NCBI GenBank assembly: GCA_030062745.1
Contig: CP099854.1
Span: 12,596,153-12,660,152 of the forward strand
Source: Capitulum mitella
Taxonomy: Eukaryota; Arthropoda; Thecostraca; Pollicipedomorpha; Pollicipedidae
Direction of reading: 5' to 3'
Length of the DNA: 64,000 nucleotides
Every line of letters starts with the position of its first letter. Within the stretch, counting starts at the first letter, position 1. Of this stretch, positions 13,309 to 64,000 are shown piece by piece. Position numbers and translations under genes: made by a program. The notes under the pieces are model-generated. The model searched no databases. It had not been told where the DNA came from and saw nothing but the letters and a program-made list of their open reading frames with translations.

Positions 13309-13345
<37 letters not shown>
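13309..13345. repeat. (TA)n microsatellite
   Basis: A TA/AT run with a few G interruptions lies in the diverged shoulder of duplication copy 1. It is absent from the corresponding place in copy 2. Confidence 0.9.
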
Positions 13346-15959
13346 ATTACATAACAACAGAAGCCTAAATAGAACACAAGACACGAACTGCCTATATGCA
13401 ATGTGAATCTGAGAGATTTCCCACTTTTGTTTGGATAATGTGGGACTAAAAATCAGTTAAGCATGAAGTCAGCCATATTCTTACATTGCATGCGCAGTGG
13501 AAAATTTCATGATACGGTGTTGCTCACTTCTCAAAATGAACCCACTTAGCAAGGAAGAAAACTCAAGTCATACAACTCGACTACAAAACAGGTTCAATAA
13601 GGGCAACCCATCACGCTTTTCGATCCACGTTCCACTTCCGTTAAGCACGATCCCCAAGCTATCAGAAGAGTTTCTGAACAACTTTTAACTGAGGACATTG
13701 CTGAGAACTTAAGCCGAGGGCGCAGGTGGGTGAAAACGTGCAAAACACTCTGCAGGGGATATTTGAGAGATCGCAACCATTGTTCTCGGAACCCCACGAA
13801 GTCAATCAAGATTTCGGCGCCGTTCTACTTGACAACGGCACCGAAGAAATTTCCATGGGTTGTGGATTTGCATGATATGATGCCCAAACATATGTACGCA
13901 TTTGTCCAGTTCTAAGAGACAAAAAGAAGGGAGTCCTTTTGGACTCAGCCGGTAGGTTTCCGGCAGTTAAAAGCTGTGATTTAATCCCCTGCGAACCTCC
14001 TGATCGTGCCTCGCAGACAACTCATGAACGCGCTGCAGTTTTGCGAAGGCGACGGAGAAGAAACATACGAGATATCGTGCAGGTCGGAGCACGTCTGCCA
14101 CTTGGAGCTCCTTGTAAAGTGGCTGCTTAGCTTTATGGCGCTCCGCCGAGACATCTGTTCCGACCTGGTTCAGCCAGTATAGTTGCAAATGTAACCGTGT
14201 ACCGACCAGTCGTGCACCGACCACACACATGCGATCGCTCAGCTGAGATAGCTTTTGTAGGATTCAGTCTTTCAGGTGGGGGGTGCTACCCTCGTCGTTG
14301 GGTCACGGTGCTTCCCATAACACTGCCGAATACCACTTCCATCTCTTCGATAGCCGTCATCCGTGTCTCTGACGATGTTGTCAGTCCACCTCTTGGACGG
14401 AACCGAGTCGACAGGAGCTTCACACGGCTTCATTCCCAGCCACTAGTTAGTGGTGACATTTCGCTGCACCGTAGGCCACAACAAAGGCCACTGTCTTCCG
14501 CTCCAGGCCCAATTCTTCCCCTGGATTGCGTGGCTGTAGGCCATTCTCCACGCCGTCGTCCGCTCCCCACTGGTCCAGGAAGTGGAGGCGCGGAGAGCGG
14601 CGAACGGAAGGCCACTCTGACCTCACATTGTTCCGCTGCGGCCGCTGCGTAGTCGTGGTCCTGATGCAACAAACCATGATAAATAACGAAATAATATTTG
14701 CAAAAACAGGTTGTAGCTATTACTTGGCTGCATCAAGCTTCACATTACCGTACTGGATAGATTAAATGGGGAGCTATAAATGGAAATATACATATTCAGA
14801 ACAACTCATACGCAAAGAGAAACGAGATTGAAACGTTCAGATTCCATGGCACACACAGCGCAAACACATACCAGGATTTCCCAATGGGCACATATTGATG
14901 AAGACGTGGAACCAACATTGAAATACATTAACGTATGCCCTACGTCTCCACACCCACTTTCCGCCCTCCACCCACACTGCATAGCTTTGTAGGGCAAAGA
15001 AAATATATGTGTTGACCCAACTACTTGACGGTCAGTCATCCTAGTGCCTCGCTGGCGAGGCTGCCCAGCTCTTCCAGTTGCCGACCGGTTCTGACGAACG
15101 TGACGTTAGGTCTGGCTTCCACGGAACGACCCGGGCTGGTTGCTGCGACTAATTACGAGGGCGCTATGAGCATAATGCGCAGCCGGCATCTTACTTTCAT
15201 TGCATCTTGTGCTGTGTTTGGTCCAGACATCCTCCGTAGCTGCGAAATGCGTTTTCTAAGCAGTGATGGTTCATGTGAGATGTTGGGATGAACTACGGAT
15301 CAGAACATGTGGTTTGCAGGTTCTCGTACAGATGGGGTCAAGATGCGGTAATGCGCAGTATACCGTGCTGGAACAGCAGCGTGCTGTTACGGTCTCCAGG
15401 GCGCTTTGACATATGTTTCCTTGCTAGTTCTGTGAGGTTAACCCTGCATCTACAGCGGCATCCTGTGCTTCATTAACTTCTGCATTCAACGCGTGTGCAC
15501 GGCGCTTTACTTTGCTATCAACCGGAATGTGGCTGTTCATTCAATCGAACCCCTCGTCTGTGCCCAGGACAGCGGTTGGCAGGGCACGTGGCCATCGCTT
15601 TGCCCACCGTCTGCTGCGTGGCCACGCGAACCCTCTTGAATGCTGTGTCCCGTTGCGTGGCAAAAAAGTAGTAGTCACGAAACTGATCTACGACACAACT
15701 CCGCACCAGTATTTGTCATACACTGTTTAACCCGAGGTACAAATTTACCATTCAAATGTCTTCGGAAGCAAAAGCCGGATGCTGACCTTGACGAAAGCCG
15801 TGGGCGGTGTTCGCTGGCATGCTTGCGGCCAGCGTGAACGTTGGAATGCAAGCAGGTCTGTACGCCTCCATGGAGGACGACGGTTTTATGATCATCGGCT
15901 TCAACAGTTCCGTTACTTGCCACAAGCATGGTACACAATCATACACTAATGCTTCTCAG

Positions 15960-17060
15960 CAGCTATTGACAGTGTTGTAATTGCACCTCCAGATGTAACT
16001 CTTTGAGCATCGGATAGAGTCTGGTCTGGCGTAAATTCTTGTTCAGGAGCTCCCGCAAGCCGTGAGGGTTCAGAAGTGCGGTGCCATGGAAAGTTCAGAA
16101 CCGTCCGGCACAGGCCCACTGTCCTTCCCGACGGTGTGCACCCGCATAAATTTCGTAAGGTGGGGAACGTCAACGAACGAAGATCCATACTCTCCGGGGA
16201 CAAAGCTGATAGAAAGTATACGTCGGATCTAATATGCCACGTGATTTACGTTTGAGGACTGCGACAATGACATGGGAACTGAAGCCATGGTTAGGTAATT
16301 ACGAAGGATTTTCTGAGATCTCGACGAGATACGGTAAGAATTTATTAAGTGTGCAGTTGGAACCATACTAGATGGAACAGCGGGAATTCGGGGCAAAATT
16401 TGCACACTTTACGTCTTGTTACCCAATGGCGTAACGAAGTCCAGCATATCGTCAAGTAACAGGAACATCACAAGTTAAATCGGGCCTGAAGAACAGAAAT
16501 TCGCCTCCTTGCATCAGATGGGTTGGAAATCCATGTCTTGCTGTCCGTCACGCCGGCCTATCGCCACATAACCTCGTTTGTGGCTCCCACGTCGGTGATA
16601 GCCGCAACGATCAAAAGGCCTAGGGCTTCCAGACGGCAGATAATGACGGCCAGTTTCCGTGATGCCATGGTGGAGTCTACTTCAGAGAAGACTGGCTGCT
16701 TCCAAGAGCCACATAGCCCCGGACCATGGCTGCCTGCAGCTTGGAGCTCATGAGGACCTGGCCTATTGATGCGTCGAAGCAACTGCCTACTAACGACTGT
16801 CGATGGCCATTTCGTCTCACGAAAGCACGCTAAGCCCCTGAAGCCGGTCCATGCCACAGACAGCCGCCTCTAGAACTAACGGTGCCGAGTCCATCGTCCC
16901 TGGTGTTACGCAACACTCGCGGTCCAGCGGAATAGCATCCTACCCTAGGGCAATGGAATCTGAAGTTTTCTCCGCAGCGTCTGCATACACCCTCCGGCTC
17001 AGACACCGCAAGCCCAGTGCACGGGAAACCAGTGGTGGCCGTTGCACAACTAGGGTTGTG
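15960..17060 (-). pseudogene. P-element/THAP9-type transposase relic, copy 1
   Basis: Read on the minus strand in shifting frames, pieces follow the order of THAP9/P-element transposases. A DEM-like start of the catalytic region (FRETKWPS) is followed by WKQPVFSEVDSTM, then AAITDVGATNEVMWR, corresponding to the SDMG..N..W motif of the family. About 270 bases later come FVDVPHLTKFMRVH, matching the ADVPHLLKL..N motif, and LKELHLEVQLQHCQ. These proteins cut and paste P-superfamily transposons with an RNase H-like fold. Here the frame is broken repeatedly. A one-base deletion around 16717-16720 puts the WKQPV segment out of frame with what precedes it, unlike copy 2. The ~270-base spacer between the SDMG-like and DVPHL-like parts may be an intron or an insertion. 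The N-terminal THAP finger is not seen. It is dead. Confidence 0.7.
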
Positions 17061-17739
17061 CAACGACCGAGGTACTATCATAGCTGTAACGCTTCGTCAG
17101 TGGGATGGAAATGATTGTTGGTCAGCCTGAAACAGCTGTTTATCTGAGTTTCGATCACCTTACTTTGGACCGAAGAGTTTTTGTCTTTGTTTGTTTTTGT
17201 TGTTTTTATGCCCATCATTTTACGCACACGCATCAGAAAAATGAATTCAGGTGGTAGGATCCTTTTAGGAATAGCTTGGATGAACATTTCAGCACTAATT
17301 CAGTGATGTGAATGAACACGATACTGCGCATTTTCATGCATTTCCCTGGCTTGCGATGCCTTTTAGGCTCGCTTCCTGATATGAGTCACTTGCGGAAGCT
17401 GAACACGATTCCCACTTGGCACGTTACAAAATTACGAATGTTCCCGTACCTTGCGAACCTCCGTTGCCCTCGAATAACAGCTTCGTTCAACTAATCTTTA
17501 CTTTGTAGGACACATATTTCAATGCAGCCCGGGAGTACCGGCCTTTTGCTTTAGAGGGAACTTTCACCGCTTCTGTTTTTGTTGACGTTTGTGCATGTTG
17601 GTTATGTCCGTCGCCCCGAAGGTGTCAAGTCCATTATTACTGGTGCAAGCATCCGCATCACCCGTGTCACGATGACAATGCCTTCGAAAAAACGGGGTTT
17701 TAACATGGGACCCTTATGGGATTTAATTTTTTTCCCTTT

Positions 17740-18030
17740 CCCTGTAACTGCCATCCCATGCATGCGTTGGATGCCAATCAGAAACAAAAGTGTAGTCTTT
17801 ACGTCCAGTGATAAAACGTTTATTTATAGGATTGTACCCTGTAACTACCAGCCCATGCATGCGTTGGATACCACTCAGAAACAAAAGTGTAGTCTTTACC
17901 TCCAGTCATAAAACGTTTGTTATTTATAGGGTTGTACCCTGTAACTACCAGCCCATGCATGCGTTGGATGCCAATCAGAAAGAAAAGTATAGCCTTCACT
18001 TCCGGTAATAAAACCTTTATTATGCGTAGT
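17740..18030. repeat. Three-unit ~98-bp tandem repeat
   Basis: Three units begin CCCTGTAACTRCCA at 17740, 17837 and 17937. Each contains CCCATGCATGCGTTGGAT and ends in an AT-rich ATAAAACGTTT-type tail. Spacings are 97 and 100 bases. The same array is in the second duplication copy at 58650-58930. Confidence 0.85.
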
Positions 18031-24590: not shown

Positions 24591-25757
24591 CACGAAACTG
24601 GGAATCGATGTAATTCGGATTCACATCCTAAGAAGGCGACATTGTTACTGCATCGAATCGGCTCGATTTAGGGTTCACGATTCGATTCATGATTCAATGC
24701 CATGCGACGGAACAAAAAACGTTGCATGCAATTTTGTCATGCATGCAATAGCCAAGTCCTAGGTCTTGTGTTATCCCAGAATCTGCTATGGGTTATGGGA
24801 TAGCTCTAGGCAACAACGATAAGGCGTATCATATCATAACATTTTTAGGCACGGACATGGAGAACTATGTCCATATTCCATTTGCAATGAGAGTCAAAAT
24901 GTAAGAAATCCCAATATGCAGATGCGTTGCTGTCTGGGTTCAAGGCTGAGGAGAAAAATGTTCACTACCAGTCACTCACAAACCAAACCTTTTACACGTA
25001 CTTCTAGCAAACATTTAAAGTCACAATTAATAGTGCAAGGAACAAAGTCTGAGCAGAAAATTCCGAAGAGAAGTGGGTATCAAGGTAGGCTCTAACCAGT
25101 TAAATGTATGGCCCAAGCATCAGATTAGGGCGTGGAATGTAGAAACTTTTAAGAGAGCATTGACGGCAATACTTCGCTTTTCATTGAATCATAACTATGA
25201 TTTTCTTAGTTCTACTCTCAATGTTGATAGACCTCGAGGTTATTCATATGAATTTAATGATGAATATCCCCATTTATAGCATGCATTCCACCGAATTAGG
25301 CTTTGGGGGTCAATTTGCCGAATCAACTCCCCTAAACTTTGTAAATCGATTCGATTCTGATTCTTGAGCCAAAACGCGATTTTGATTCTGATTCGCAGGA
25401 CTCAAACAGGGAACTGATTTCCAATTCCAGGCCGCCCATTCACTATCGCAATGGTGCCACTGTGTCCTCTATATGCTGGCTGTCACATAATCATGCGTAA
25501 CGGCGCCGTTTTAAGGACGGGGCGCATATAGAATGCTTTAGAATAGAATGACTGCTTAGAATAGAATGATAAGAATGGTCCCTGTCTTGATGTTGCAGGC
25601 TTTCCTTAGTAAGGGCATCCATGTCCCATCGCACGGGTGCATATCACACGTTCGCATGTTAACGAGAGGATGCCTTTGTATCCATGGACAGCATTCGCTC
25701 GTGGATGGCTTCCATGTTCCTACCCCCCTAAGGCGGCTCAGAGTTTTCGCCCATACN
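24591..25757. other. GATTC-rich spacer leading into the gap
   Basis: Words like GATTCGATTC, AATCGAATCG and TGATTCTGATTC recur at 24580-24700 and 25340-25430. Between them is AT-rich sequence without a recognised gene. Minisatellite-type GGTGCC/GGCGCC words resume at 25440. Similar GATTC-rich DNA is at 33800-34050 and 26335-26360. Confidence 0.5.
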
Positions 25758-26256
25758 NNNNNNNNNNNNNNNNNNNNNNNNNNNNNNNNNNNNNNNNNNN
25801 NNNNNNNNNNNNNNNNNNNNNNNNNNNNNNNNNNNNNNNNNNNNNNNNNNNNNNNNNNNNNNNNNNNNNNNNNNNNNNNNNNNNNNNNNNNNNNNNNNNN
25901 NNNNNNNNNNNNNNNNNNNNNNNNNNNNNNNNNNNNNNNNNNNNNNNNNNNNNNNNNNNNNNNNNNNNNNNNNNNNNNNNNNNNNNNNNNNNNNNNNNNN
26001 NNNNNNNNNNNNNNNNNNNNNNNNNNNNNNNNNNNNNNNNNNNNNNNNNNNNNNNNNNNNNNNNNNNNNNNNNNNNNNNNNNNNNNNNNNNNNNNNNNNN
26101 NNNNNNNNNNNNNNNNNNNNNNNNNNNNNNNNNNNNNNNNNNNNNNNNNNNNNNNNNNNNNNNNNNNNNNNNNNNNNNNNNNNNNNNNNNNNNNNNNNNN
26201 NNNNNNNNNNNNNNNNNNNNNNNNNNNNNNNNNNNNNNNNNNNNNNNNNNNNNNNN
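25758..26256. other. Assembly gap (499 N)
   Basis: An uninterrupted run of N. Minisatellite-like sequence borders its left side, so collapsed or unspanned tandem repeats are the likely cause. True size is unknown. Confidence 0.99.
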
Positions 26257-27374
26257 GCCTTTTCTGCCAGGAAATCGGAGCTATACTTTGTGAGGTTACA
26301 GGGGAGGCAGAATTTGCCCCTTCCCAACACGGTTATGGAATCATCGAATCGAATCGACAGTCAAATCAGCATGTGTAGTGACCTGGAATAGGGTTCATGT
26401 GTGTTTGGAGAAATGCATTACCGACTTGCAATGCTGCACGTAAAAGGAAAGCCAGTTTACATTTGAAAAAAACACTATGAATGCAGTGAACTTATCCCAG
26501 GTGCCGAGAGCTACGACAAACCTTCCAGATGTTCCATTTGTGCCCAAAATCGTGCCGCACACCAAGCTATGAAGCAGAACTAATCGCATGGATTTACCTT
26601 ACAGAATCAAACCCGAACCAACATACACAGATACCAAATGCATTGTGACTTGATGTTTTATCACATACTTCACGTGTTTCCTGGTATTAAAGCTTCGTTC
26701 ACAAAGTCCTTTCAGCAACGGCTCCTCAGAATTTGTCTGACAGTTTTCCATGGCCAAAGCAAAATCTGGCACTTCTCAAATGTGTCACGTATCATACTGC
26801 ACCTGACACCGCGTTTCACACAAGACTCATAAGAAACATAGCCACATTAATCAGCTGTCGAAAATGTGTACAACCAATGAAAATATCCGACCAGTGCCCT
26901 ACCACCTGCGCGCAAGATGACTGACCGACCTCGTCAGACTGCCATGACACAGCACGAAGTGCACGGTAGTGAAAGCAATGGGAAAACCCCTGTCCCCCCA
27001 AAAACCACCCCACCACCCGTGGAAAAAAAAAAAAAAAAAAAAAAAAAAGACCCCCCCCCCCAACCAAAAAAAAAGAACCCCAAAAATAAACCCCCCCGAA
27101 AAAAAGTCCAACCCCCCCCCCCCCGTACCCCCCCGCGCCGGCACGGTCGTATCGCACCTTTGGCGGCACGTTAAACTTCCGCCACAAAATCAGCTATTAC
27201 CTAGGTCAATCCGAGTGTAGGGGTCGGAGTCTATGTCACAAGCTATGCCTAGCACAGGCTCCGATTCAAAACATCACCCCAGCAACCACTCGGACTAAAT
27301 AGTAATAACATTGAGTATAAAATAAAAAAAAAACTGAAAAACATGTCTTCTTTGACAAAAAGACAACTCTAGCG
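26257..27374. other. Gene-free stretch with homopolymer-rich segment
   Basis: No supported gene. 26989-27138 consists almost only of A and C runs, including 26 consecutive A at 27023-27048 and several C runs of 7-13. The frames through it (Lys/Pro on plus, Phe/Gly on minus) are low-complexity artefacts. Confidence 0.6.
26989..27138. repeat. A-run/C-run low-complexity segment
   Basis: Alternating homopolymers of A (up to 26) and C (up to ~13) make a sharp change from the surrounding composition. It could be genuine simple sequence or a sequencing/assembly artefact. Confidence 0.8.
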
Positions 27375-27641
27375 GTGCCGACCAGCAACCAGAATAGCAG
27401 CCCACGGAACAGAAAGGAAGAGCGTGGTGTCAGAGGAGAGGTTTATCAACAGAAGCCCCGATTTTCAGATAAGGTGGTGACTAAAGCTGGTATCTCATTC
27501 GACGGCAAGACAGACGTCTTCGTCATAGACATAGATACCTGCAAGGTTAATTCAGATGTGTACAGCCAACTGCTAAACGAAAGGCTTGTTTCAGCCAGCA
27601 GGGGGCTACCATCTGAAGACTTCAGCCTTCCAAATACCTGA
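27375..27641 (+). pseudogene. Tc1/mariner-type DDE transposase fragment
   Basis: An 88-codon frame contains FSDKVVTKAGISFDGKTDV, FVIDIDTCKVNSDVYSQLL and LPSEDFSL. In Tc1/mariner transposases the string K.MVWAGIS..GKT..F.....KVN...Y...LL......YP..DF..QQDG lies between the first and second catalytic aspartates. The fragment stops just where the QQDG motif should be. It is followed within ~15 bases by Ty3/Gypsy integrase sequence. Both are on the plus strand. It lacks the DNA-binding N-terminus and the catalytic end, so it is inactive. Confidence 0.6.
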
Positions 27642-27654
27642 AGACAGCAAAATG

Positions 27655-28640
27655 GCCACACCCTATTCTACCTGACATCAAAGCCTTGTATCGTCGGAAG
27701 GGCGAGATGTCATCAGAAGATGAATATCTCATGGTCGGCCAGCCTGTAGTGTCGGCAAGAACTTCCAAATAAGCTACATGAGGGCCATCTAGGCACAGCA
27801 AAGATGAAGGCTGTCTTCCCCGCCTACATGCGGTGGCCGGGAATTAACGCGGAGATCCAGAAGACTGTGGCAGACCGTTCCGCGTGTAAGGAGAAGCAGA
27901 TGTCGCCACCTGTGGCTTCAGTTCATCCATGGATACCCCGGATGGACTCTGGCAGCGACTTCTTCTGGACTTTGGGACGTGGAAAGGAAGGAAGGCATTT
28001 TCTGGTTTTAGTAGATGCGTTTACCCGGGTGAAGCGAGGTCTATTAAATGCAGACTTTGTCGGCAAGACGACTACCGCCCTCCGTAAACTACTTACTACT
28101 CACGGTCTTCCGAACTGTCTGATCGCCAACGCGCCCGCCATCGTCCGGAAGACCGAATCGGATAAACGCTGGAATGTCCTTCCGCTAGCGCGCCCTTCAA
28201 CCTCCAACTGATTTGCTAAGAACGCGATAAAACAATTGAAGCATCATCTGAACAAGGCAAAATTTAGCAATGCGGAGCATGCTATAATCCAGGTCATGGC
28301 ACCCAAAAGAAAACCACCTCATTCTGCAACGGGACGCACACCCGCAGAGATCTTGCCGAAAAGAGCGTAAAGACCGAAACTTAATCTCTTTCATTTGGAC
28401 CTCCGAAACCGTATGAGGTATCGTGCTTATGAAGCGGCACCTCAGCAGACCAATAGACACCTTTCACCTGGAGAAGTAGCTCTGCTATAGGATCGCCAAT
28501 TCAGAACCACGCAAACGTGAATTCCCGTCACAGTTGTTGGTCGTTGGGGCAGACTGTCAACACAGTGAATTTGTGCCATCGAAGGCTTCAGGTACATAAA
28601 AACCACCGGGTAGCCAGCTGCAGAGACCAAAGGCCGACTG
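27655..28640 (+). pseudogene. Ty3/Gypsy retrotransposon integrase relic
   Basis: In shifting plus-strand frames the order is that of a Gypsy integrase. ALYRRKGEMSSEDEYLMVG precedes the zinc-binding region LHEGHLGTAKMK, which keeps H..H, and WPGINAEIQKTVADRSACK, where the first of the two cysteines is replaced. Then come FLVLVDAFTRVK of the catalytic core and LLTTHGLPNCLIANAP, where the usual SDNGP aspartate is gone. Further on are HSATGRTPAEILPKRA and a chromatin-binding-like HLSPGEVALL stretch. Integrase inserts retrotransposon cDNA into the genome. No reverse transcriptase, gag or LTR was found, so this is a pol 3' fragment. Frameshifts and stops make it inactive. Confidence 0.8.
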
Positions 28641-29879
28641 GCAGTTTCAAAACGAGGCGTAGAGGCTGGTCAGCAAGAGGATGATGCATCTTCTGTCCAC
28701 AGTGGTCAGCAGTCAGCGTCAACGCAAGCATCTCTTGCAAAGGACATTTGTTCAGTGCCACGAATCTGCTATCTCAGATTCTTCAGAAACTGCGGGGTCA
28801 TTGAAATTAGATCATGTTAGTCTTCGATACACCTTCCTTTTTTGACGGGAAATGAGGGATTTTTGTACTTCCTAGATGTGAAAAGAGACCTGTCGCGAAC
28901 CCAGACAAAACTTGGCAGTGCTGATGCGCATGATACGTTTCGTTTGTAAGTCACTTGCGAATGTCCCATAACGACATCATATCTGAGTATGGCGAACGAA
29001 TGTAATTACTTTAGGCTTGACCGACCTGTGACCTCGGTTTGTCACGAACATCATGTCCCGAGGCCGCGTGACACAAGGCTGACTGGCCCATGACTGATTC
29101 AAACCCGTCAAACGAAGAGTGAATGCCCACTTTTTCTGGTTCATAAATGCCGTTCTAGCAATTTTGGCATTGCATGGAAACCGTTCAAGTGCCAGAAGTT
29201 TCTTGCATTCGACGTGCATGCATGGGACTTCTGATCAGAGCGCTGCTAAGTGCGGCCAAGCCATGCTTTCTGCGCCGTTTTCTGCCTTTTTGCACTACTC
29301 CAGCGAAGTGTCACCAACTCCACCAGCGTGCCTTCATGGCTGTCGTCCACTGACACGTGGAGAATCACAGGCGTTCAGTTACAATGCCTCTAACGGCAAT
29401 CTCACCACTGCTCTCGGAGCTGCTCATTCTCTCTCTCGCCGGGGGCGAACTTCAACAAGAGCAGTGAGCTCTTCACCCTGTGGAAACAGAACCGTCTGCG
29501 TTACCTTACATTGCATCGGTGGACGGTGAATTTTGCTTAAAATTAATGCGAGATAGACCTTCACCTGACACCTTTACAGATCACACAGATGGCCTCATCT
29601 GCTGAGATTAGCGCGCCTTTTTGGACAGAGCTGGTCTGAAAGTAAAGCATTTTTAAGGGCAATGTTCCACCTTGGTCGGCATTTCTGAATATACTTTGCC
29701 TCAAAGTGCCGCTGATAACGTTTTTCTCATTTTGTCTCTTCAACTCTCATTTTCTGGCAAACGTCTAACGCCCGCCAGTATCACTCAGTGCAGGTCAATG
29801 AACCTTCGCCTTTTGAAAGCATGTATTGGTGTGCGCCTGATAAGGCCTAGTAAATGAGAGTGATAAACGTCAGCGGCGT
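28641..29879. other. Intergenic, nothing recognised
   Basis: ORFs of 60-136 codons (for example 29119-29529 plus and 28977-29219 minus) lack any recognisable domain. No RNA gene or transposon end is evident. Confidence 0.4.
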
Positions 29880-30545
29880 AGCTAAGAGTCTGCAGCGGGG
29901 TGAGGCACCACCATAGCTGTGATTCGTCGTCAAGGTGATGGAAATCGTAGCCGACCAGCCTGAAATAAATCTGTATCGGAATTCCGTCTAGTTTAACTTC
30001 GTTCGTAGCGTTTTCGGGGTTTGTTTGTTCTTTTTTTTCTCTGTCAGTCATTACGCATTGGTAGACTAAAATTAGACGGCAGGGTCCTTTTGATCATAGC
30101 CTGGCTGAACATGTCAGCACTGCTCCAGGGACATGCATGAACCAAGCAACACATGTTCGTACATTTCCCGCAACGCCTTTTTAGGCTCAATATGCAGGAT
30201 GTTGGCCACAGTCCTCACATGGCCCGTTACTTCCTTGACGAATGTTCCCTTATTTTGCTGATGTCCGACCCCGTCGAATAAAAACAAAACGTCGGTGATT
30301 CCAACTATGCAGTACACATTTCAGTACAGTCCAGGTGTGCCGGCACGTATACTCTGGAGGTAACTATGGCCAACGCTAGGATAACTGAGGTTTGTTTATT
30401 TCTTTACGTCCGTCGCCCGAAAGCTGTTATGTTAATTACAGCAGTGTTGAGGCAGGCGTCCGCATTTCCCTGGCACGGTCAATACGGCCCAAAAAGCTGG
30501 CGTTTTAATACCGGACTCTTAAGTCTTATGACCGTTATCGTTGTC
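29880..30545 (+). repeat. Third, diverged copy of part of the duplicated block
   Basis: This region aligns in order and orientation with 17090-17740 (and 58000-58650). Shared landmarks are GTGATGGAAAT..T..CC(G/A)ACCAGCCTGAAA, TTTGTTTGTT(T/C)TT, CAGG(G/A)TCCTTTT, GCCTTTTTAGGCTC, GTCCGTCGCCC(C)GAA and GGCGTTTTAATA. The divergence is far greater than between the two large copies, so it is an older repeat. Confidence 0.65.
30114..30317 (-). pseudogene. Possible von Willebrand A domain N-half fragment
   Basis: The 67-codon frame reads VGITDVLFLFDGVGHQQNKG, FVKEVTGHVRTVANIL and a later HVLLGSC. The order hydrophobic-D-V-L-F-L-F-D-G, then a helix starting FV, resembles the first strand and helix of a vWA domain. 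However, the metal-site D-x-S-x-S is not kept (D-G-V-G instead). The equivalent stretch in the large duplication (17280-17500) no longer reads open. Probably a relic; the assignment is tentative. Confidence 0.3.
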
Positions 30546-30599
30546 ATCCTGTTTCATCCGGGTCGATGTTCCTGATCACTCTGTGAATTCGCGCCTTCA

Positions 30600-31300
30600 G
30601 CTGTTGGACTTCGCCTCCCATCTTCTTGCGTCAGCTCTCTGTTTCACCACGCTCCAGAAGTCCACAACAGGCCAAAGCTGTGGCGCTCAGGGAAGGTTCA
30701 TGTTGCGCGTCACGTAAGGCACTCCTTCCTCTTCGGGGAGATCGAGTGTCTCCCAGGCGTAATGTGCGTTCGCCGGCGCCGGCCGGAAGAGCCGTAATGT
30801 CGCGATCAGGGTACTCGGACTCCAGAAACGGCACCAGAACCTCCCTGAAACACTTGTGGCGGTACTTCTCGCCGGTCACGTTTGCCTTGTTCGGGAATGT
30901 GCCAGGCACGGTGATCCCACGCCGGCTGATGGCGGCCCGAACCAGCAGCTTCCTGGAAAACTTGCCTTCTTCCCTGAACATCACCCCAGGGGACACGTGA
31001 CCACCTGCACGGGCGTAGTAACCTGCGTCTGCTGTAACTGTAACTGTAACTGGCTGCCGCTCGTGATGAAGTAAGGCTGGCCATCCATGATGATGTCACC
31101 CTGCTCGTTTCTCGCCACTGGCCCTCGCGACAGCGTCCGAATGAGACTTTTCTGAGCCGCTGCCTGTTGCTCTGTAACTTTCGGCACTTTCTGCGTCTTT
31201 CGGCGCTTCGGTCCAGTTTCTTCCAGATTATTTTGGACGTGCGACCTCGAAATTCCAAATTTCTAGGCAGTAACCTTCGACACACGCCAACTTTACCACA
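30600..31300 (-). pseudogene. mariner-type transposase relic
   Basis: Minus-strand frames follow a Tc1/mariner-superfamily transposase common in arthropod genomes. A helix-turn-helix end GISRSHVQNNLEETG is followed by KRRKTQKVPKVTEQQ, then QGDIIMDGQPYF, where the family usually has MDDESYF. Next come KFSRKLLVRAAISRRGIT and YRHKCFREVLVPFLES. In another frame FRPAPANAHYAWETL replaces FWPDLA.AHYA (aspartate lost), and WPVVDFW stands for RPIEDFW. A (GTAACT)n stutter at 31038-31060 lies at one frame break. The first catalytic D remains and the second is gone. Inactive. Confidence 0.7.
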
Positions 31301-34570: not shown

Positions 34571-34689
34571 ATGTTTCTATTGATTAGGCCTATTATTATT
34601 CTATTGTATTACATCTATTCTATTGTATTATTACATCTATCATATAGTATTCTATTGTATTACATCTACCACAATCCAACCCTTCCCCC

Positions 34690-35490: not shown

Positions 35491-35668
35491 GAGCTTCATG
35501 ACGTTTGGTCTGGTCAAGTAAAACAATTTCTCACAGGATCGGTCGATGGTGAATGAGATCCCTGTGGTTACCAATGACCGGAAATTCCCGGAAAAACGGA
35601 CGGATTTTCTCCAGAAGAGCGGTCCTCAGTACAGTGAACGACAAAAAAATCACTGACCCTCCAGAGTC

Positions 35669-36836: not shown

Positions 36837-36859
36837 GCCAAGGAAAAAATAGAGCTCAG

Positions 36860-40163: not shown

Positions 40164-40165
40164 TT

Positions 40166-44235: not shown

Positions 44236-44475
44236 TCAGCACCACTTCCAGTCCTGGTGCTGGGCCGGCCGACACTCAGTCGGACACTCCTTCGGCAGCG
44301 TCCCGATGAAGCGGACCCGCGCCGAGCCCACGAAGTCCTGGCGGTCCCGCCGCCGGCTGGGCCACGGCCGGCTGAGCGGGAACTGGCGGCAGGTGTAGCT
44401 GTCGTGGGCCAGCACGTCCTGACGCCGCGCCATCTCCGGCCACAGCCACCTGGCCAGCTCTGTCTGGTCCCAGGA
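44236..44475 (-). CDS. Terminal exon of glycosyltransferase-like protein
   Basis: The last exon carries 79 codons plus TGA (44236-44238), phase 0. It is preceded by a polypyrimidine tract and acceptor CTGTCTCCGTTTCAG. It encodes SWDQTELARWLWPEM, a short linker, VLAHDSYTCRQF, PSRRRDRQDFVGS, and ends with LPKECPTECRPAQHQDWKWC. The spaced cysteines (ECP.EC) and the terminal D-W-x-x-C resemble the C-terminal end of a family of uncharacterised animal proteins that I believe are glycosyltransferase-like. Homologues typically have DQ..L...LWP, HDSY.C and FVG in the same order. The exon is GC-rich inside AT-rich DNA. The upstream intron (44476-48275) contains a disrupted transposable element and a minisatellite. 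The start codon is not in the window's recognised exons. Confidence 0.75.
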   Translation of the reverse strand, partial: SWDQTELARWLWPEMARRQDVLAHDSYTCRQFPLSRPWPSRRRDRQDFVGSARVRFIGTLPKECPTECRPAQHQDWKWC

Positions 44476-45289
44476 CTGAAACGGAGACAGCTAGTCTGGA
44501 ATTTCTGCTAAAAACCACGCCGCTTCTGCCACGATTTTCGCCGATTATGAGGCATGCATCGACTTTGCTTCTAGGTAAAAAGTGCACCCAGTAGCAACTG
44601 TTTGCAGATGTCAAGGACTTCAATGGAAATTTGTGGGTTTGCCGCATATTGCCGAATAACTACCGAGACGCGTAGAGTATTTTGCTATCTTCTAGTTCCT
44701 GGGTACGAACCATTTTCAGTCCCAGGTCTATCTTGAGAACCAATTGCCGGATGTGGGTGATTCGAAAGGTACTCAGAATCCGGTCACTCTGATGACCCAG
44801 GGCTTGTTCCCATTTGTTGATCTCAAGGTCACCGATAACGTTTTAGGTTACGTCATCAACATTTCAAGTCTGTCAGTTACTTCCCAACGTTTTCAGAAAA
44901 ATATTTAACCCTATTACGCACCCATAACGTTTGGGGGCATTCCATTTGGGGGTGGGGTTCTGCGCCCCTTCCCCCCAAGATCACGAGAACTATCCTTCCG
45001 ATTTGATAGCAAAAATCGTCAATCGGTTCGCCATCACTTAAACTGCGTCTTCTAAAACTCCGGAAAACTGTGTAATGGGCAGATAAAGGGAGGCGGCAAA
45101 AAAGTCAGGAAGGGGGGATTTCTAAAGTTGGGATAACTCAGGTATTCATGGACCGATTTCGAATATATTATATACATAATACATATATTACAGTAAAATG
45201 ACTCGAGAGCCAATAGATGGGGTTCTTCCCTTTGGTCCACGTATCCAATGACGTAGCCAAGGGGAGGCTGGTAGGGGTGAACGCCCTCT

Positions 45290-46340
45290 CCTGGAGGTCG
45301 ACCAGGGGCCCTGAGGCCGACAGCGGCACCGAAACGGTCAGGGGTCCCGGGATGGTCGGGAGCCCTGAAACAACCAGGGGCTGTGAAACTGTGGCAGTGG
45401 GATGGTCAACGACCCTGGGAGTTTCGAGGACCTGCAGAGACTGTCATGGATCCTGACACGGCCGGGGCCCGAGCCTGCCATGAGCATGAAGCAACCGGGG
45501 ACCCTCAAACGGTCAGGGTTCCTTTAGGGTCGGGGCTCTGAGATGTCCATGAACCATCCGACAATCAGAAGCCCTGACACACCCAGGAGCCCTGAAACAG
45601 TCGGGGGTTCTGGTTCGGCCAAATGCCCTGGGACGGTCGAGGGTCCTGAGACGGTCAAGGTCCCGGGATGGCCGAGAGGCCCGGAAACGGGCAAAGGTCC
45701 TGAGACGGTCAAAAGCCCGGGATGGTCGGGGTCTGGAAGTGATAGCCCTTTAGACAGTCGACGGTCCTGAGAAGGTCGGAAGGAAGACAGTCCCAGGATC
45801 ACCGACCATGGGCCTCGAGATGGTAGAGGGCCCTGGGACGATCAAGGGCCCAGGATGGTCAGGGGCCAGGGGTGGTCAGGGGTCTTGGGACAGTTATGAA
45901 CTCTGATTAAGTGGGGCTCCTTAAGTGTTCAGGAGCTCTGGGACGAGCGAGGGTCCTGCTACGGCCTAGATCAGGGGTGTCGAGAGAGTCGTGAGTCCTC
46001 AGACAGTCTGGAGCCTACGATGACCACGGGCCGCGGGCCAGTCAGGGGCCTACGACGACCAGGGGCCGTGGGACAGTCAGGGGCCTACGGTGACCAGGGG
46101 CCGTGGGCCAGTCAGGAACCATGAGTCTGAGTCTGACATTCACTGGGCAGGACAGTCATGAGTCTGAAACAGTCAAAGGCCCTGGGGTGATCAGAACCCT
46201 TGAGACAGTCAGTGGGCCTGGGACACCCAGGGACCTTCAAACGGTCAGGGGCGCGGGGACAGTTGGCACCAGAGAAAATCAGGGCCCTGCCATCGACAGC
46301 CCTGGGACTCGGGGGCCCAGGAATGGCCAGGAACACTTAG
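45290..46340. repeat. Degenerate GGTCAGGGGCC minisatellite
   Basis: Imperfect units of about 24 bases run for a kilobase, built from ACGGTCAGGGGTCC(T)GGGA-like words (for example CAGTCAGGGGCCTACGACGACCAGGGGCCGTGGGA). Frames of Gly/Pro/Thr/Val repeats on both strands are by-products. It lies inside the insertion that splits element copy D. Confidence 0.8.
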
Positions 46341-47394
46341 ATAATAATGTAACGTAATGTAAGTATGGTAGCAAAGTGGATAGGTTAAATGCACTGATCA
46401 TAGAGTGCTGAATCGAGCGTCCACCTTGTCAATGCGTGGTAGGAAATCTCAGAGTATGCGAACCATGCCGAGACTAAAAGGGGGCCTCGTTTGTCACACG
46501 CCCACGAGGCGCGTTTGCTGGCTTTAGTTTGATGTCAGGCGGAGATACTGCAGTATCTCACCAGTCGCAGTTCGCTTCAGGAGCCAGCTCTCGTTTTAAG
46601 CCATTTCATTCTGAAATGACACCTGGATTCAAAAACGATTTCTCTTACTAATCCTCCGCCTAACCCGACAACCAGCAAAAACGTGATCAGCATGTAAACA
46701 ACGATACATGAAGCACGTATAATTCAACAACATACATAACGGCGAATTCCACCTTGCCGCGAAAAATAATGCAGGGAATCGACAAAGGTACGCCTCAGAG
46801 AGTGCCTCTGAGCAGCGCGCGGGGCGACGGTAAAGTAAGAAGAGTGCGCCTCACGAGCAGCCTTTAGCGGACGCGCTGGGGAACGATGGGCAAGCAGCCA
46901 AAGTGAGCCTCAGGGAGCAGCCCTGAGCGGACGTGCACGGAAGCGAATCGGGAGGCTGACTACCCACCGCTTGCCGATCAGTTTCTGACGTCAGTTCGGA
47001 GTTACGTGGCAAAGTGTCAGCCGGACAAAGGCGGACAGGAGAAAGAGAGGGGGTAAAAATGTGCAGAACTGGCAATAACCAGCGCAAAGGCTGCCAATCG
47101 AACCCGGCTTGCACGCATGTGTTTCGAGGATCTTACCACGGATCTATCTTTCCGCGCGAGGGCGCATTTCCGACACTGCGGTAAAATAAAAATATGCAAA
47201 CTATGCCATTAATTATACCTGTGTCGTAAATTTTTAAGTGAGGCAAAAACCTGGTTCGATGTTACTTGAGGTTCCCCTGAAAATGATGTGCGCAAAATCT
47301 GGAAAGTTTTCCTGATTTGGGGTTGGGGTTGGCTGGGGACAGTAAAACTGATTACTCTCCTTCCTGGACCGAATCCTGGCTACGCGAGAGCAAA
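46341..47394. other. Right part of the insertion within element D
   Basis: No coding region recognised. GAGTGCCTC/GCGCCTCA..GAGCAGCC words recur three times at 46790-46925 (a short degenerate repeat). The tRNA-like sequence 47082-47157 is the only other feature. Confidence 0.4.
47082..47157 (-). other. tRNA-like sequence (pseudogene or SINE piece)
   Basis: On the minus strand a 76-base segment has a possible 7-bp acceptor stem (GCGCGGA with TTTGCGC, two G-T pairs), a D-arm GATC...GATC around a CGTGGTAA loop, and a B-box-like GGGTTCGATTG. The anticodon arm and T stem do not pair properly. It is therefore not a working tRNA but probably derived from one. Confidence 0.3.
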
Positions 47395-47861
47395 TATCTA
47401 TAATTTGCGCATAATTCATAGGCGTTCACAGGACTTGGAAAAAAAGGGTGTTTTTTAACAGAACTGACATAAAGGTTACAAACTGTTTTTTTTAGCTTTC
47501 ACGAGTTATCTTATTCTTAAGTAGAAATATTTTTACAGTGTATGTACAATGTTGGCATAGGCGGTGGCAGGGACAAGTAGAAGGGAACTGTCATGGGCAA
47601 ATTTTCATTCCACCAACTTATGATCTTTGATCTCGAATGACCTCAGATGACGCAAACGACGCAACTGACCTTGGGTTCGTTTTATATTGTTCTAGAACGA
47701 TATCATGATTCAAATTGATCATATTTCCCAATGTCCTATTAATGGCCGTAGTGATATAATGTACGCGAACAGACACCTTAAACCATATCTTTGTGACCTT
47801 ACCTGATATCGCCGTGAAATCTGAAAATCAAGTAGATATAATTTCCAAAGCTATAACATAT

Positions 47862-47886
47862 GTATATATATATATATATATATATA
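47862..47886. repeat. (TA)n microsatellite
   Basis: A short TA run lies within the right part of element copy D. Confidence 0.9.
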
Positions 47887-48275
47887 CACACTCCGCTATT
47901 AATTGTTACAAATAAGCGCTAAAACTATCATAATATCAAATTTAGACTTCTGACCTTGATCTTAATTTCAAAAATAGGTTCATGCCAACAAAGAAGTTTT
48001 TGCGAGTTTTCACAGTTATTTACGTATGCAGGCATGTAAATGTCTACGTTCTAAACTCTTTCTCAGCCATTTTTCTTCCACGTTTAATAGCGCCAAAAAC
48101 GGCATACTGTGCTTCCCAGGAACTTCGCCTTGTTCCGCGCCTGAAAAAAATAATCTGAAAAACTCGCGCAATGCGCAGAACAAAAAATTACAAAAGATCA
48201 CCACGGTTTGGACACCACGCCGCCTGGAACGGGATTATGCACTGATTCTCGCTGAAAGACATAAAGCTAACCTAC

Positions 48276-48458
48276 CTTCTCTTCGTCGTTGGGCAATTCG
48301 TCCAGGACCGCGCGTAAAATCGGTCGGTACAGGTCATCGTAGCGATTCCAGCCACCCCACATGCCGGCCAGCATTGCGTCGCCGTGGTCTGGGTGATCCC
48401 TCATGACGTGGAACGTCAGGTTGGAGTCGATCCACGCCTGTGCAGCGTCCCTCTCACG
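48276..48458 (-). CDS. Internal exon of glycosyltransferase-like protein
   Basis: A 61-codon, phase 0/0 exon has acceptor TTTACACTTGCAG on one side and donor AAG|GTAGGT on the other. It encodes RERDAAQAWIDSNL, then TFHVMRDHPDHGDAML, AGMWGGWNRY and VLDELPNDEEK. The FH-V/I-MRDHP..H and GGMWG motifs are the most recognisable signature of the family. They directly follow the R-D-L-D-S motif of the preceding exon once the intron is removed. It lies 1.0 kb downstream (in transcription) of the piggyBac-type element at 49473-50673 and about 130 bases upstream of the degenerate end of element D. No frameshift or stop interrupts it. Confidence 0.78.
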
Positions 48459-49472
48459 CTGCAAGTGTAAATCGAAATGATTTGCTCGCAAGACGTGATT
48501 CACTTGCCTGTGCCACTACCATAGAGAAGCAGAATATCATAGATCATGAAGTACGATAGTATCAAAGAGTACCATTGTGTGGTAGTAGTGTCACTGGCAG
48601 AGTATAGAGTCCATAGCACTCGTTCGCTTTTTTACGCCATATGAGAGTCGTACAGCCGTCTTTGTGTCTGTCTATCGTCAACTCTTGTTCCGGTCCAGTG
48701 CTCAAACGGCGTCACAGATCGGTCCGTGCAGGACGCCGTTCGAAAAATCTCCCTCAGAAGTGGTGCATCTGGCGATTTCCGTTGCCCTGAGGTGCGTGGT
48801 CGGCGCGCGCCGACCGCTGAACCAGCCATTGATTGAGGACAGGGGACGGATACCGTCCCATTGGTGATTTTTGAGAGAGATGAAAAAGTGCAAAGGCATC
48901 TGAAATACTGAATACCTTTTCTGGAGATGATTTAGCGTGTTTATTTAGGTCATTCAAGCTCAGTTCAAAATGACGACACAGGAGCAACCTTGTTTTCCAT
49001 TTCCTACCTAATTCCAATTCGCAAATTGTTTTTCATGCACACGAGTCGAGCTTATTCTACCATACCACATGTGCTAAGACGTAATAAGAATAATCTTAGC
49101 ACAGGCTCCGCCACAATATGTGACTGCAATTCATACCTTTGTTTTTTTCTTTTCTAATTTTCAAATAAAACTATAACTTATCTCAGAAAAATAGTAAGGC
49201 AGCCCGTTCAAGTCTGCATAGTACTCTTGTCGAGATTCAGTAGAACTATGTTATAGGGACACCGATTGGCGTTTACTTCCATTTAACCGGTCAGTTACCT
49301 CCGGAAATAAATCATGATAGGATACTGATGTCATTTAACTTGGAGTGCAACTCGAACCAACAGCCAATATTGCCAATGTCTATGTCCCTGATATGCTTGA
49401 AGAATCTGTTTTAATGGGTCGTGATTGGGTATGAAAGACGTGTGGTGGCATCTGACCTTGCTCCAGCAATTA
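48459..49472. other. Intron sequence, nothing recognised
   Basis: About 1 kb of the intron between exon 51088-51238 and exon 48276-48458. ORFs on both strands at 48630-49017 have no recognisable domain. Confidence 0.5.
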
Positions 49473-50673
49473 TTAATCCCATTCCCGGAGGGTTAAACGG
49501 TATGGCCTATTCCCGGCAGGGGGCGACGGATTCGACCCCCCACCGAGACCTCCAGAACTACACATCCAATTTAGTCGCAACAAACGGCAATCGTTTTCAT
49601 ATGATGTTAACTACATTTTGATGAAAAAGATGTTTTCAAATTTTGAAAGGGATGGATACAGGAGGGCAAAAACGCCAAAATGGGGAATATTTTTGGGCTT
49701 CTTATAACTCCCTTGTTTATGGACAGATTTTGATAACACTGGCACGAGTCGAGAGAATATGAACGGGACTTATACCACTGGCTCACACATTTGAAACTTT
49801 GAGAAAATTCATAGGTGTTCACAGGGTTTCTAAAATGGGAAGAGTCGTTTTCAAGGAACAAATAAACAAAAAGTTACAAACGCCTTTTTAGTTTTACTAG
49901 TCACATTGTGCTCGTGAAGTACAAATCGTATTACAATGTTCGTATTATGTTAGCATAGGTGGTGCCAGAGTCATGAAAAAGGAGGAACTGCATGGTCTCA
50001 TGTTCATGAGGTCAACTTACGACCTATGACCTTACATGACCTCAAATGACCCTAGAGTCGCATGGAATGATCTTGAATGCATTTTATATTGTTTAAAAAC
50101 GTTTCCAAACATCTGAATCCACTCTATTCCTAAAATGCCATTTTACGGCTGTCCTGATGTTAGGTACGCGCACTGACATTTTAGGTCATAGCTCAGTGAC
50201 CCGATCTGATATCACGCTGAAATTTGGTACACAAGCAAAAAGCACTGTTCTACGCCATATGTGTTCTGGGTTTGGCATTTGGAAAAATAGCGCCAAAATC
50301 AGCATTGTAAAACCAAATTTTGAATTTCCACCTTGACCTGACCTTGCAGAATGACCTTAGATTAACAAAATGACATTTGTATGCTTGCCCAAGTATTTAC
50401 CTATGCACCCATATAAGGTTTTAGGTTCTACCTTGAAAATGCTACCTTTGGCAACCATTTTCTTTTACCCTCTACGGGACCAAAAATGGCCTGAGGTGCC
50501 TTCCAAAGACGTTGCCTGGCTCCGCCCCTGAACACGATAGAATTTTGTTACAGTACGTAGGAAGAATTGGTAGGAAAAGTGACCAACTTTCGTGAAGCTG
50601 CTTCAGAAACTCTCAAACTGTCAAGCAAAAACCCAACGGGGGCGGATTCGGCCCCTCCCGGGAACAGCGTTAA
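49473..50673 (+). mobile_element. piggyBac-type non-autonomous element, copy C (intronic)
   Basis: TTAA flanks both ends (49473-49476, 50670-50673). The left repeat is CCCATTCCCGGAGGG and the right, in reverse complement, CGCTGTTCCCGGGAGGGG. The body is colinear with copy B, including GGTATGGCCTATTCCCGGC, CAAACGGCAATCG, TTCACAGGGTTTC, GTTAGCATAGGTGGTGCCAGAG and TTGCCTGGCTCCGCCCCTGA. G-run/C-run hairpins at the ends are weaker than in copies A and B, so this copy looks older. No transposase is encoded. Confidence 0.75.
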
Positions 50674-51042
50674 AAAGCATGCATCACGTTTTTGGTTTTC
50701 ACCGTCACTGGTGACTTGACTATTTCTTCAAACTTCGATAGCGCATCAGTTGCGTGTAGCCTCGAAGGATGTGTAAACTGGAGAAGAATACCGTTTGAGG
50801 TACCACTGTGTCACATTTCCTACTACATTACGCTGCGTGCAAATGATTTGCAGGTAAAATTACCGCGTAAATCAACAAATGGCGTAGCTCGTGCTCTAGA
50901 ACTATGAACTTCAAAATCTCAGATTTGAGGTGAACATGCACATGCAGAACGTTTATTAACTGAACGCGACCAGCGTACAAGAAATGAATGACATCAGAAC
51001 AATTCTGACCTGAGAAACAAAGAGCCCAGACTCCTGACTGAC

Positions 51043-51076
51043 TTCCTTTACCAGGCGGTGCCGCCTGGTAAAGGAA
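51043..51076. other. Perfect 34-bp palindrome just inside the intron
   Basis: TTCCTTTACCAGGCGG and its exact reverse complement are separated by only TG (arms 51043-51058 and 51061-51076). On the minus-strand transcript it begins 12 nucleotides after the 5' splice site (donor at 51087) and would fold into a 16-bp hairpin. Confidence 0.9.
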
Positions 51077-51087
51077 CTGCCACTGAC

Positions 51088-51238
51088 CTGACCCAGCAAA
51101 GAGTCCAGGTCCCTCACTAAGAACTGGTCCACGGTCTCATCCCCCAGCACGGTGAACCGCCACACGGAGCCGGGTTTTCTGCTGACGTCCCCGTGGCCGG
51201 GCAGGTGGCGGACGTCACAGAGGTCCACGTGGTCGTAC
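51088..51238 (-). CDS. Exon of glycosyltransferase-like protein (R-D-L-D-S motif)
   Basis: A 151-base exon lies between acceptor TTGCTGTCACCAG and donor CAG|GTCAGT. The first base completes a codon from an unseen upstream exon; then 50 codons follow. It reads YDHVDLCDVRHLPGHGDVS, PGSVWRFTVLGDETVDQFL and VRDLDSLLGQ. Joined in frame to the next exon this gives RDLDSLLGQ-RERDAAQAW. In the family the pattern is V.LCDV..IPG.G, (S)VWRF..M.D..VD....SRDLDS...RE..AV.EWL. The D-L-D sits where a GT-A glycosyltransferase would have its metal-binding DxD. This is from memory of the family, not a search. The role of the protein is unknown to me. Upstream exons and the promoter were not identified; the conserved CCAAT/TATA pair at 53502-53535 is on the same strand 2.3 kb upstream. 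Confidence 0.78.
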
Positions 51239-52028
51239 CTGGTGACAGCAAGACCCGACTTATTGTAGGGACCACTTTACAGATATTCATGCCATGGTTC
51301 CTGATGACAGGGTGGTCCGGTTTATTGCAGGGACTTGAGTGTAGAAGGCCATAGACCATAGCGCAAGCACATCAGCAGTCCTACGGACTTTGTGAAATTC
51401 TGACCCTCGCCACATACATAGTGTTGCAAGGTAAGAAATGGCCTCAAAATGGACCACGCCCTAACAGATCTAAAAGTGCTCCTACGCGCATGCCAGGGAA
51501 CATTCACAGACGTACATGGTAGTCCATCGCTTTGTGTTTTTTAGCAATAAAATGGGAAGACGGTGAAGATTTTACCACGCTCGCTTTACCTCCTTGAATA
51601 TCCGCAGCGTTTAATCTCGATGATCCAATGTAACGGCAATTTGTTTGCGATGCTCGGTGAACTCTAGCAGATGCAAGGAGGAGGACATCGGAGCTATGAC
51701 CCCCTTTCGTCAGAAAGGGGATACCAACGTTTTTGGCCTCTCCCTACGTTTCGGATGGAAAACGTTTATTTTTTCGAAACATTTGTTTTAGATGTATCTT
51801 AATTTTCCGAAACGGAGAAACAAAGTGGCCGAAATCCGAGGAGAAATAAACATTTGGGGGTACGTTGGGAAACACGGATGGAGACTTGCCCCATGCCCCT
51901 GGAGCATGGTCTGGATCCGCCGTCATCAATATATAATCAATATATAATCAATATATAAATAAATAATCGTCGTCAGATTATTTGCATGGTGAATATTGAA
52001 TTACCACCAAGACGTCACATTTCAAAGC
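51239..52028. other. Upstream intron or intergenic DNA, nothing recognised
   Basis: No exon with splice sites could be joined to 51238 in the required phase. Short tandem ATATATAATCA units occur at 51928-51955. Confidence 0.4.
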
Positions 52029-63220: not shown

Positions 63221-63341
63221 TTAACCCTGTTCCGTGGCGGGGACAGATTCTGACCCCTCCCCCCGCCGCGGTTTCTCGCTCGCCATTCTCGGGCTTTTTG
63301 GGAGCAGCGTCGCGAAACTTAGTGACTCTTTCCCAAATATG
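63221..63341 (+). mobile_element. Solo piggyBac-type element end, copy 2
   Basis: Counterpart of 22310-22430, beginning TTAACCCTGTTCCGTGG. Only the one terminus is present. Confidence 0.5.
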
Positions 63342-63548
63342 TTCCACATGCTGTAAAACAACAGTTCCCCGGCTGAGTTTATTGACATTGCCCAGAACAA
63401 AGCTACCGCCAATCATAATCACGAAATCCAAATTGGGTTCGGTGCCGACTAGGGAACGATACACATTTGCAACGCCTCTGAACTCCCCGAACGAGGGAAT
63501 GCTTGCTGCAGACGTGATGACAAGACTGATGCGGGAACACGTAATCAC
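63296..63548 (-). pseudogene. Possible von Willebrand A domain fragment, copy 2
   Basis: The frame is identical to that at 22385-22637 over the vWA-like part (RISLVITSAAS, DFVIMIGGSFVLGNVNKL). No base change within this part alters a residue between the copies. That is expected at this level of identity and is not evidence of selection. Confidence 0.3.
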
Positions 63549-64000
63549 ATACTACACTCTGTGCACAGCAGGAACGCAGGTCAGGTCGACTGGATACACA
63601 GTTACTATAGAAACACGATGACATTATTTTTTAACGGGATCGCCGTTGCCGGTTCAGCAAAACTCCCATCGAAGTTCTATACGGAGTGGTCGCAACGATG
63701 TCCAAGTTGCCTACACTTTCCGCAGAGTTCTGTCAGGTGGCTTTTGTTCTCATCCATCTTGTCCATTCCCCTGGGCCTGTGCAAGGGTCTCTGCCAAAAA
63801 GAAACCCTTGTGTGTGACGTTGGAGCCCGACGTAAGCTAGCGATGACCGACACGTGCGTACATCGAACTATCAATGGTCACCATTCATGCAGAGCGACAA
63901 ATGATTCAGCACCAACACAGTGATGTTTTGGGGAGGGCAAACACACGTGTCACCAGATGCATGACGAAAGCAATTCACGCAAATAGCTACGAGCTCCGCC

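Follow-up and report, generated by a model that had tools for sequence, protein, structure and literature searches.

A probable tandem segmental duplication in Capitulum mitella whose second copy appears to begin at a hybrid joint between diverged paralogues

The stretch of the Capitulum mitella genome considered here (C16:12596153-12660152, in an assembly of 477,042,490 bases in 16 contigs; these 64,000 nucleotides are hereafter the window) carries two near-identical direct copies of a multi-kilobase block, which part abruptly from a diverged but colinear arm at position 13928. Flanks of 50 kb on the left and 150 kb on the right were taken in, giving 264 kb, and window coordinates are also used beyond 64000. 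Gaps of exactly 500 N interrupt the flanked region at -26531 to -26032, 25757-26256, and 107023-107522, and the window spans the end of a first gap-delimited contig (contig 1) and the start of a second one (contig 2, 26257-107022, free of N), with contig 3 following from 107523; the contigs are short here (51.8 and 80.8 kb). Three related paralogues are labelled C1 (at 13.9 kb), C2 (at 54.8 kb), and C3 (77994-88870), and successive segments are labelled B, D, E, and F. A literature search made without gene or species name found no paper on this locus.

Block B is the segment that opens at the step. In a BLASTN comparison of the window with itself, 13418-23089 aligned to 54327-64000 at 97.8% over 9681 columns, and the part from 13928 onward (13928-23089 versus 54837-64000) reached ~99% identity. 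Taken 200 columns at a time, identity was ~80% at 13494-13890 and 95-100% from 14091 onward, with 94.5% in the set of columns that includes the step. The first-pass annotation, made from the letters of the window, had described a near base-for-base match of 13928-23090 with 54837-64000, preceded by a colinear and much more diverged stretch; its coordinates are right, and the preceding stretch is indeed diverged (~79-83%) and patchy, with 12563-13206 at 83.2% to 53154-53802, 13418-13926 at 79% to the C2 arm, and a poorly aligning, indel-bearing stretch between the two pieces. That annotation saw only 9.2 kb of B because the window ends at 64000: followed further, B runs to 25756 in copy 1 and to 66644 in copy 2 (123 mismatches in 11803 aligned bases), ending at the last base before the N gap, and belongs to a larger B...D...E repeat that reaches 125375. 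The N gap between the copies, the third paralogue C3, and the duplication of 26257-51921 at 90479-125375 were absent from its account. In the assembly, the initial 3 kb of B matches two near-identical places as well as a single diverged paralogue that is split into two pieces; all of them fall inside a 73-kb part of C16. The left arm does hold dispersed repeats (4041 candidate places, of which 40 were scored); the idea that the step is the end of a transposon is not supported, as the C2-C3 and C1-C3 alignments run across it.

The third paralogue makes the step readable. The left part of C3 matches 51964-55710 at 94.2%, and its right part matches B in pieces of 75-84%. To the left of 13928, the 1364 three-way columns contain 275 sites at which C2 agrees with C3, 25 at which C1 agrees with C2, 19 at which C1 agrees with C3, and seven at which all differ. 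Conversely, over 13928-14923 (974 three-way columns), C1 agrees with C2 at 121 sites and with C3 at two, all differ at one, and C2 agrees with C3 at none. C1-specific sites end at 13927 and C3-specific sites start at 13944, which confines the switch of affiliation to 16 bp. In windows of 100 bp, C2-C3 identity is 91-99% to the left of the switch, 94-96% over the next 200 bp, and 66-98% thereafter; likewise, C1 and C3, ~20% diverged elsewhere, differ at only 10 of the 204 columns directly to the right of the switch (~95% identity) before an uneven renewed divergence. C2 thus has the make-up of a hybrid of two parental paralogues, with one switch, 16 bp long, at the edge of a 204-column tract of high identity. 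Position 54837 is most simply explained as the point at which a crossover or template switch joined two diverged paralogues, C2 being the hybrid. The diagnostic sites switch once, and one recombination suffices for this; with C1 as the hybrid, another recombination in C2, ~200 bp away, would be required. The expectation of the first-pass annotation that a single duplication should give uniform divergence does not hold here, since the left 1.3 kb of copy 1 is most simply an older paralogue lying outside the young duplication. By itself the step needs no gene conversion; it marks where homology ends.

A short hairpin had also been reported on the step, and it is there, with a full stem. The motif AGTCCTTTTGGACT stands at 13932 and 54841 and, with both strands of the 264 kb searched, occurs nowhere else. 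Such a hairpin would cover at least 13 bp of a 16-bp interval drawn at random from the window with a probability of 0.012, and 5.4% of random 17-bp intervals touch a comparable one; given these chance rates, the hairpin is suggestive and was rejected as proof of a mechanism.

The step is one edge of a repeat much larger than B. As assembled, segments B...D...E occur twice in the same order and on the same strand, at 13928-51921, where B and D-E lie on separate contigs and the middle is missing at the gap, and at 54837-125375. The D-E pieces align as follows: 26257-26967 with 90479-91182 (94.5%), 27139-34587 with 91179-98637 (97.7%), 34656-43018 with 98651-107022 (98.0%), 39584-46046 with 111914-118354 (98.2%), 46072-47742 with 118310-119974 (95.1%), and 47739-51921 with 121194-125375 (97.6%). 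Block B and the D-E pieces (94.5-98.2% by BLAST) have the properties of a tandem segmental duplication, being longer than 1 kb, more than 90% identical, close together, and in direct orientation. Copy 2 is ~62.2 kb long when the overlap at the 107023 gap is left out, copy 1 lacks the equivalent of 66645-90478 (~23.8 kb) at the 25757 gap, and both D copies as well as both joints lie on contig 2. A 4301-base query from the middle of copy 2 has one full-length place in the assembly, and its positions 990-4157 match many other places as a dispersed repeat (674 candidates, of which 40 were scored).

Several smaller elements lie within the repeat. The interval 69689-72856 (C16:12665841-12669008) is a ~3.2-kb repeat that has 98% identical counterparts at C16:11682706 and C16:3412729 and, in large number, more distant ones of ~92% elsewhere; it is probably a young mobile element, located in the middle part that the assembled copy 1 lacks. 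The interval 119974-121194 (C16:12716126-12717346) is a ~1.2-kb segment of copy 2 that is absent from copy 1, where the sequences flanking it share 4 bp (47739-47742); one part of the segment is 91% identical to -4187 to -3169 in inverted orientation, and the whole has the look of a young transposon insertion. Homopolymers of A and of C abound at 26968-27138, near the start of contig 2; this stretch has no alignment to copy 2 and may be a low-quality contig end. Lastly, 39584-40163 is a minisatellite of 18 copies of a 32-bp unit, open in several reading frames, that splits the D alignments.

The right-hand end of the unit differs between the copies. In copy 2, E is followed by F at 125375|125376, and in copy 1, E is followed by a 42-bp filler and then, at 51964, by the arm that resembles the left part of C3 (C3-left'), whose BLAST match to C3-left starts right behind the filler (51964/77994). 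The filler is built on the unit ATCAATATATA, which was found nowhere else on either strand of the 264 kb, and no source for the filler was found there. An old paralogue keeps the order E-F, with E at C16:17265885-17270118 (78%) and F from 17270121 to 17275604 in two pieces (83% and 77%) that lie 2.4 kb apart. The order E then F is thus supported as ancestral by one old paralogue, and because it also stands there, the junction of E, filler, and C3-left' is probably the new tandem joint. The two unit ends do not lie in one homologous repeat pair: the end of E adjoins the filler and C3-left' in one copy and F in the other. C3-left' had no match in the first 18 kb of F, and only short pieces (34-174 bp, 77-89%) at 143.8-144.2 kb. 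Two tRNA-Phe genes are present in the window, at 2021-2093 and, inside C3-left', at 52029-52101; related sequences 84-111 bp long are found at 78061 and at places to the right of it.

Divergence between the copies is a mosaic. According to a change-point analysis, 27139-29449 differs by 5.26%, 29450-34272 by 0.25%, and the rest up to 34587 by 2.56%; values of 3.13%, 0.17%, and 0.32% apply to 34656-37818, 37819-39559, and 40170-43018, of 1.53%, 4.89%, and 4.40% to 43018-45386, 45387-46040, and 46100-47742, and of 4.11% and 0.55% to 47743-49737 and 49738-51921. The best single split of each of eight stretches was compared with 200 shuffles, and four stretches clearly beat all shuffles (93.7 versus 8.2, 33.2 versus 8.3, 33.0 versus 8.2, and 11.0 versus 7.5); B showed a slight excess (8.8 versus 7.3) that stayed under the penalty, and the remaining three stretches showed none. 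Constraint was rejected as the cause of low divergence for 49738-51921, the sole tract given an outparalogue control: the outparalogue is as distant there (19.9%) as in the highly divergent neighbour 47743-49737 (17.0%), so the low divergence of this tract does not reflect conservation. Abrupt-edged low tracts within an older duplicate, in the one controlled case not due to constraint, are what gene conversion would leave, and the mosaic fits either gene conversion or the mixing of reads by the assembler, which would look alike.

Specifically, the low-divergence tracts, and perhaps B, could be assembler mosaics in which reads of copy 2 were used in copy 1. This is a tentative alternative for the tracts and is compatible with a hybrid origin of the step. 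Tract divergence of 0.17-0.55% is at the presumed allelic level of 0.33-0.53% at the next gap, and the contigs are short with unmerged ends; conversely, read mixing would leave the switch at 13928 unexplained, where C1 and C3 share only 16 bp exactly, and conversion tracts of such a size are known, the mean interlocus gene conversion tract in human segmental duplications being given as 6.26 kb (PMC10172114).

The contrast between B (1.04%) on one side and C3-left' (3.45%) and the D/E high tracts (3-5%) on the other, together with the failure of any split of B to pass the penalty, may also point to a history in two steps. In such a history, C3-left...E would first have been duplicated in tandem (~4%), and C1-right would have come to stand behind C3-left' later (~1%), through an unequal exchange or a long conversion. 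This variant of the tandem-duplication reading, whose odds overlap with it, is conceivable and rather doubtful. A simple unequal crossing-over would also leave a D ~1% from the first D, and the D at the right end of contig 2 (99264-103500) is instead near the D of contig 3 (0.33%) and ~2% from the first D; moreover, the end of the exchange would need to fall within 66644-90479, for which the assembled copy 1 offers no sequence. A scenario of unequal crossing-over and nothing else, with a third D, was rejected, as the distances of the contig 2 and contig 3 copies of D are not those it predicts.

The ends of contigs 2 and 3 bear on how far the assembly itself could have produced the repeat. The tail of contig 2 (99264-107021) matches the head of contig 3 (107523-115334) over ~7.7 kb (C16:12695416-12711486) in overlapping pieces of 99.3% and 98.7%, and two stretches outside the minisatellite differ at 14 of 4235 (0.33%) and 15 of 2817 positions (0.53%). 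At 35266-39500, the first D has 83 private sites versus six and seven in the other two copies of D. The overlap is probably one locus present twice, as unmerged contig ends or two alleles, and a third true copy is not the simplest reading of it. By extension, block B of contig 1 could be the other haplotype, or a haplotype variant in copy number, of 54837-66644, placed alongside it by the scaffolder. Contig 1 breaks off within the repeat, at a gap of 500 N, the B copies differ by only 1.04%, and the overlap at 107023 shows that unmerged ends occur here. Yet a match of contig tail to contig head, as expected of a haplotypic false duplication, is present at 107023-107522 and not at 25757-26256; there, the counterpart of the contig 1 tail lies inside contig 2, away from its head, which weakens a plain haplotig explanation of B. 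Contig 2 alone has D twice, so that B-like sequence is expected upstream of its first D; the presumed allelic divergence at the overlap lies below the divergence of B; and C1-left differs from C3-left' by ~20%, far above that allelic level. An artefact of this kind is improbable. Each of the three explanations put forward in the first-pass annotation (gene conversion, two duplication events, and joining by the assembler) was reasonable and keeps some room for one part of the locus or another; of their forms, the simple haplotig fits poorly.

The locus is probably, judging from the assembled sequence, a real tandem segmental duplication with a unit of ~62 kb in the order B-middle-C3-D-E, whose second copy starts as the hybrid joint. 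The end of E would have been joined via the 42-bp filler to a copy of the left arm of C3; synthesis or crossover would then have passed from C3-left to C1 within the short ~95% shared tract and recopied B-middle-C3-D-E, leaving the step at 13928 as the homology edge of the paralogue switch. A replication-based template switch, or a duplication by end joining followed by unequal exchange, would each serve. Later interlocus gene conversion or assembler mixing may have homogenised tracts to 0.2-0.6%, and perhaps B to 1%. In this tandem duplication, the middle of copy 1 (~24 kb) would be missing from the assembly at the 500-N gap. A bolder form of the model, in which a single replication-based event that switched template twice, the second time at a site set by the 16-nt hairpin at the edge of the ~200-bp 95% tract between paralogues otherwise ~20% diverged, made the whole 62-kb duplication and the hybrid joint, with conversion since rewriting multi-kilobase tracts, is unlikely.

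Several observations weigh against the tandem duplication. The assembly lacks the middle of copy 1, and the link between contigs 1 and 2 rests on scaffolding and matching order. The ancestral E-F order rests on one outparalogue, and two other F-like places, at C16:16.80 Mb and 6.06 Mb, were not among the matches of E (40 of 11469 candidates for E were scored, mostly a dispersed repeat inside E). The apparent ages are unequal, from 3.45% in C3-left' and 3-5% in the high tracts of D/E to 1.04% in B and 0.2-0.6% in the low tracts, so that one event alone is insufficient and has to be supplemented by conversion at a later time, by another event, or by mixing in the assembler. Finally, at 40200-43018, copy 1 is no further from the end of contig 2 than contig 3 is (three, six, and nine private sites), as expected if reads of copy 2 were used there.

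Table. Positions of the features of the duplication in window coordinates.
Feature	Position	Strand	Remarks
C1-left, diverged paralogous arm left of the step	12559..13927	+	12559-13206 is 83% identical to 53154-53802 and 79189-79839
Block B, copy 1, reaching the end of contig 1	13928..25756	+	1.04% mismatches to 54837-66644
Putative paralogue switch (crossover or template-switch interval)	13928..13943		16 bp identical in C1, C2, and C3
Perfect hairpin, 6-bp stem and TTTT loop	13931..13946		13 of the 16 bp of the switch interval lie inside the hairpin
500-N scaffold gap	25757..26256		would replace ~23.8 kb of copy 1 (equivalent of 66645-90478) under the favoured reading; contig 2 begins at the equivalent of 90479
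D-E, copy 1	26257..51921	+	matches 90479-107022 and 107523-125375; mosaic divergence
42-bp filler at the presumed new tandem joint	51922..51963		three 11-bp ATCAATATATA units
C3-left-like arm (C3-left') of the putative hybrid C2	51964..54836	+	3.45% mismatches (99/2868) to 77994-80873
Block B, copy 2, right arm of the putative hybrid C2	54837..64000	+	goes on past the window to 66644

No protein-coding consequence of the rearrangement was found in the frames scanned against Pfam, namely 10 open reading frames (ORFs) and 95 of the 172 listed stop-to-stop frames of at least 70 aa in 12500-52000. Five families reached E 0.01, with one member each: DUF4817 (1.4e-4) and Integrase_H2C2 (3.3e-4), both from the scan of the 10 ORFs, both under their cut-offs, and both transposon-like, and DUF7010, DUF7707, and TSLPR_D1 at E 0.0036-0.0099. 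A dispersed element of ~1.2 kb lies at 4009-5225, 10782-11996, and 49473-50659, the first two forming an inverted pair (90%); a query holding the last of these matched 14 of the 15 other contigs of the assembly, for the most part at 77-79% (40 of 11469 candidates were scored). Genome-wide, the TTAGG repeat is abundant, with 1826 forward and 1916 reverse exact six-unit matches (3742, overlapping counts), compared with 1 and 5 for TTAGGG, a pattern suggestive of an arthropod; among the TTAGG places listed, all lie at 2.6-13.4 Mb of the assembly contig C1, in contig-internal positions.

The value of the locus is that a step of divergence can be read with the help of a third paralogue, as a hybrid junction formed when the copy arose and not as conversion over half a block. 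Moreover, the assembly probably hides ~24 kb and probably repeats ~7.7 kb here, so that copy counts and ages taken from it would be wrong; this caveat touches the missing middle, the overlap at 107023, and the low-divergence tracts more than the step.

The rearrangement is of an ordinary and already known kind, and parts of it resemble several described systems. As in non-allelic homologous recombination between paralogues, outlined in PMC2583991, there are direct tandem copies, a hybrid at the joint, and a switch that sits where a short, highly similar tract begins or ends; unlike in that mechanism, the paralogues are ~20% diverged outside a tract of ~200 bp and the joint of E, filler, and C3-left' is without homology. 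Fork stalling and template switching or microhomology-mediated break-induced replication, as outlined in the same source, where palindromes or cruciforms are named as a possible stimulus of replication-based rearrangement, share with this locus two joints in one duplication, a filler at one and a hairpin at the other, but the microhomology of 2-5 bp was not identified at the filler joint here and the ages of the parts differ. Haplotypic false duplication, as treated in PMC7203741 and PMC9516828, likewise yields a near-identical block ending at a gap, and the overlap of contig ends at the next gap is of that type, but here the match to the contig 1 tail is in the interior of contig 2, and contig 2 on its own has D twice. 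Lastly, interlocus gene conversion, in the accounts of PMC10172114 and PMC2588116, leaves multi-kilobase tracts of very low divergence with abrupt edges in an older duplication and a higher divergence at the edges, as described in Drosophila around the edges of many duplicated blocks (Osada and Innan, PMC2588116); here such conversion may account for the tracts in the assembled sequence, where assembler mixing would look the same.

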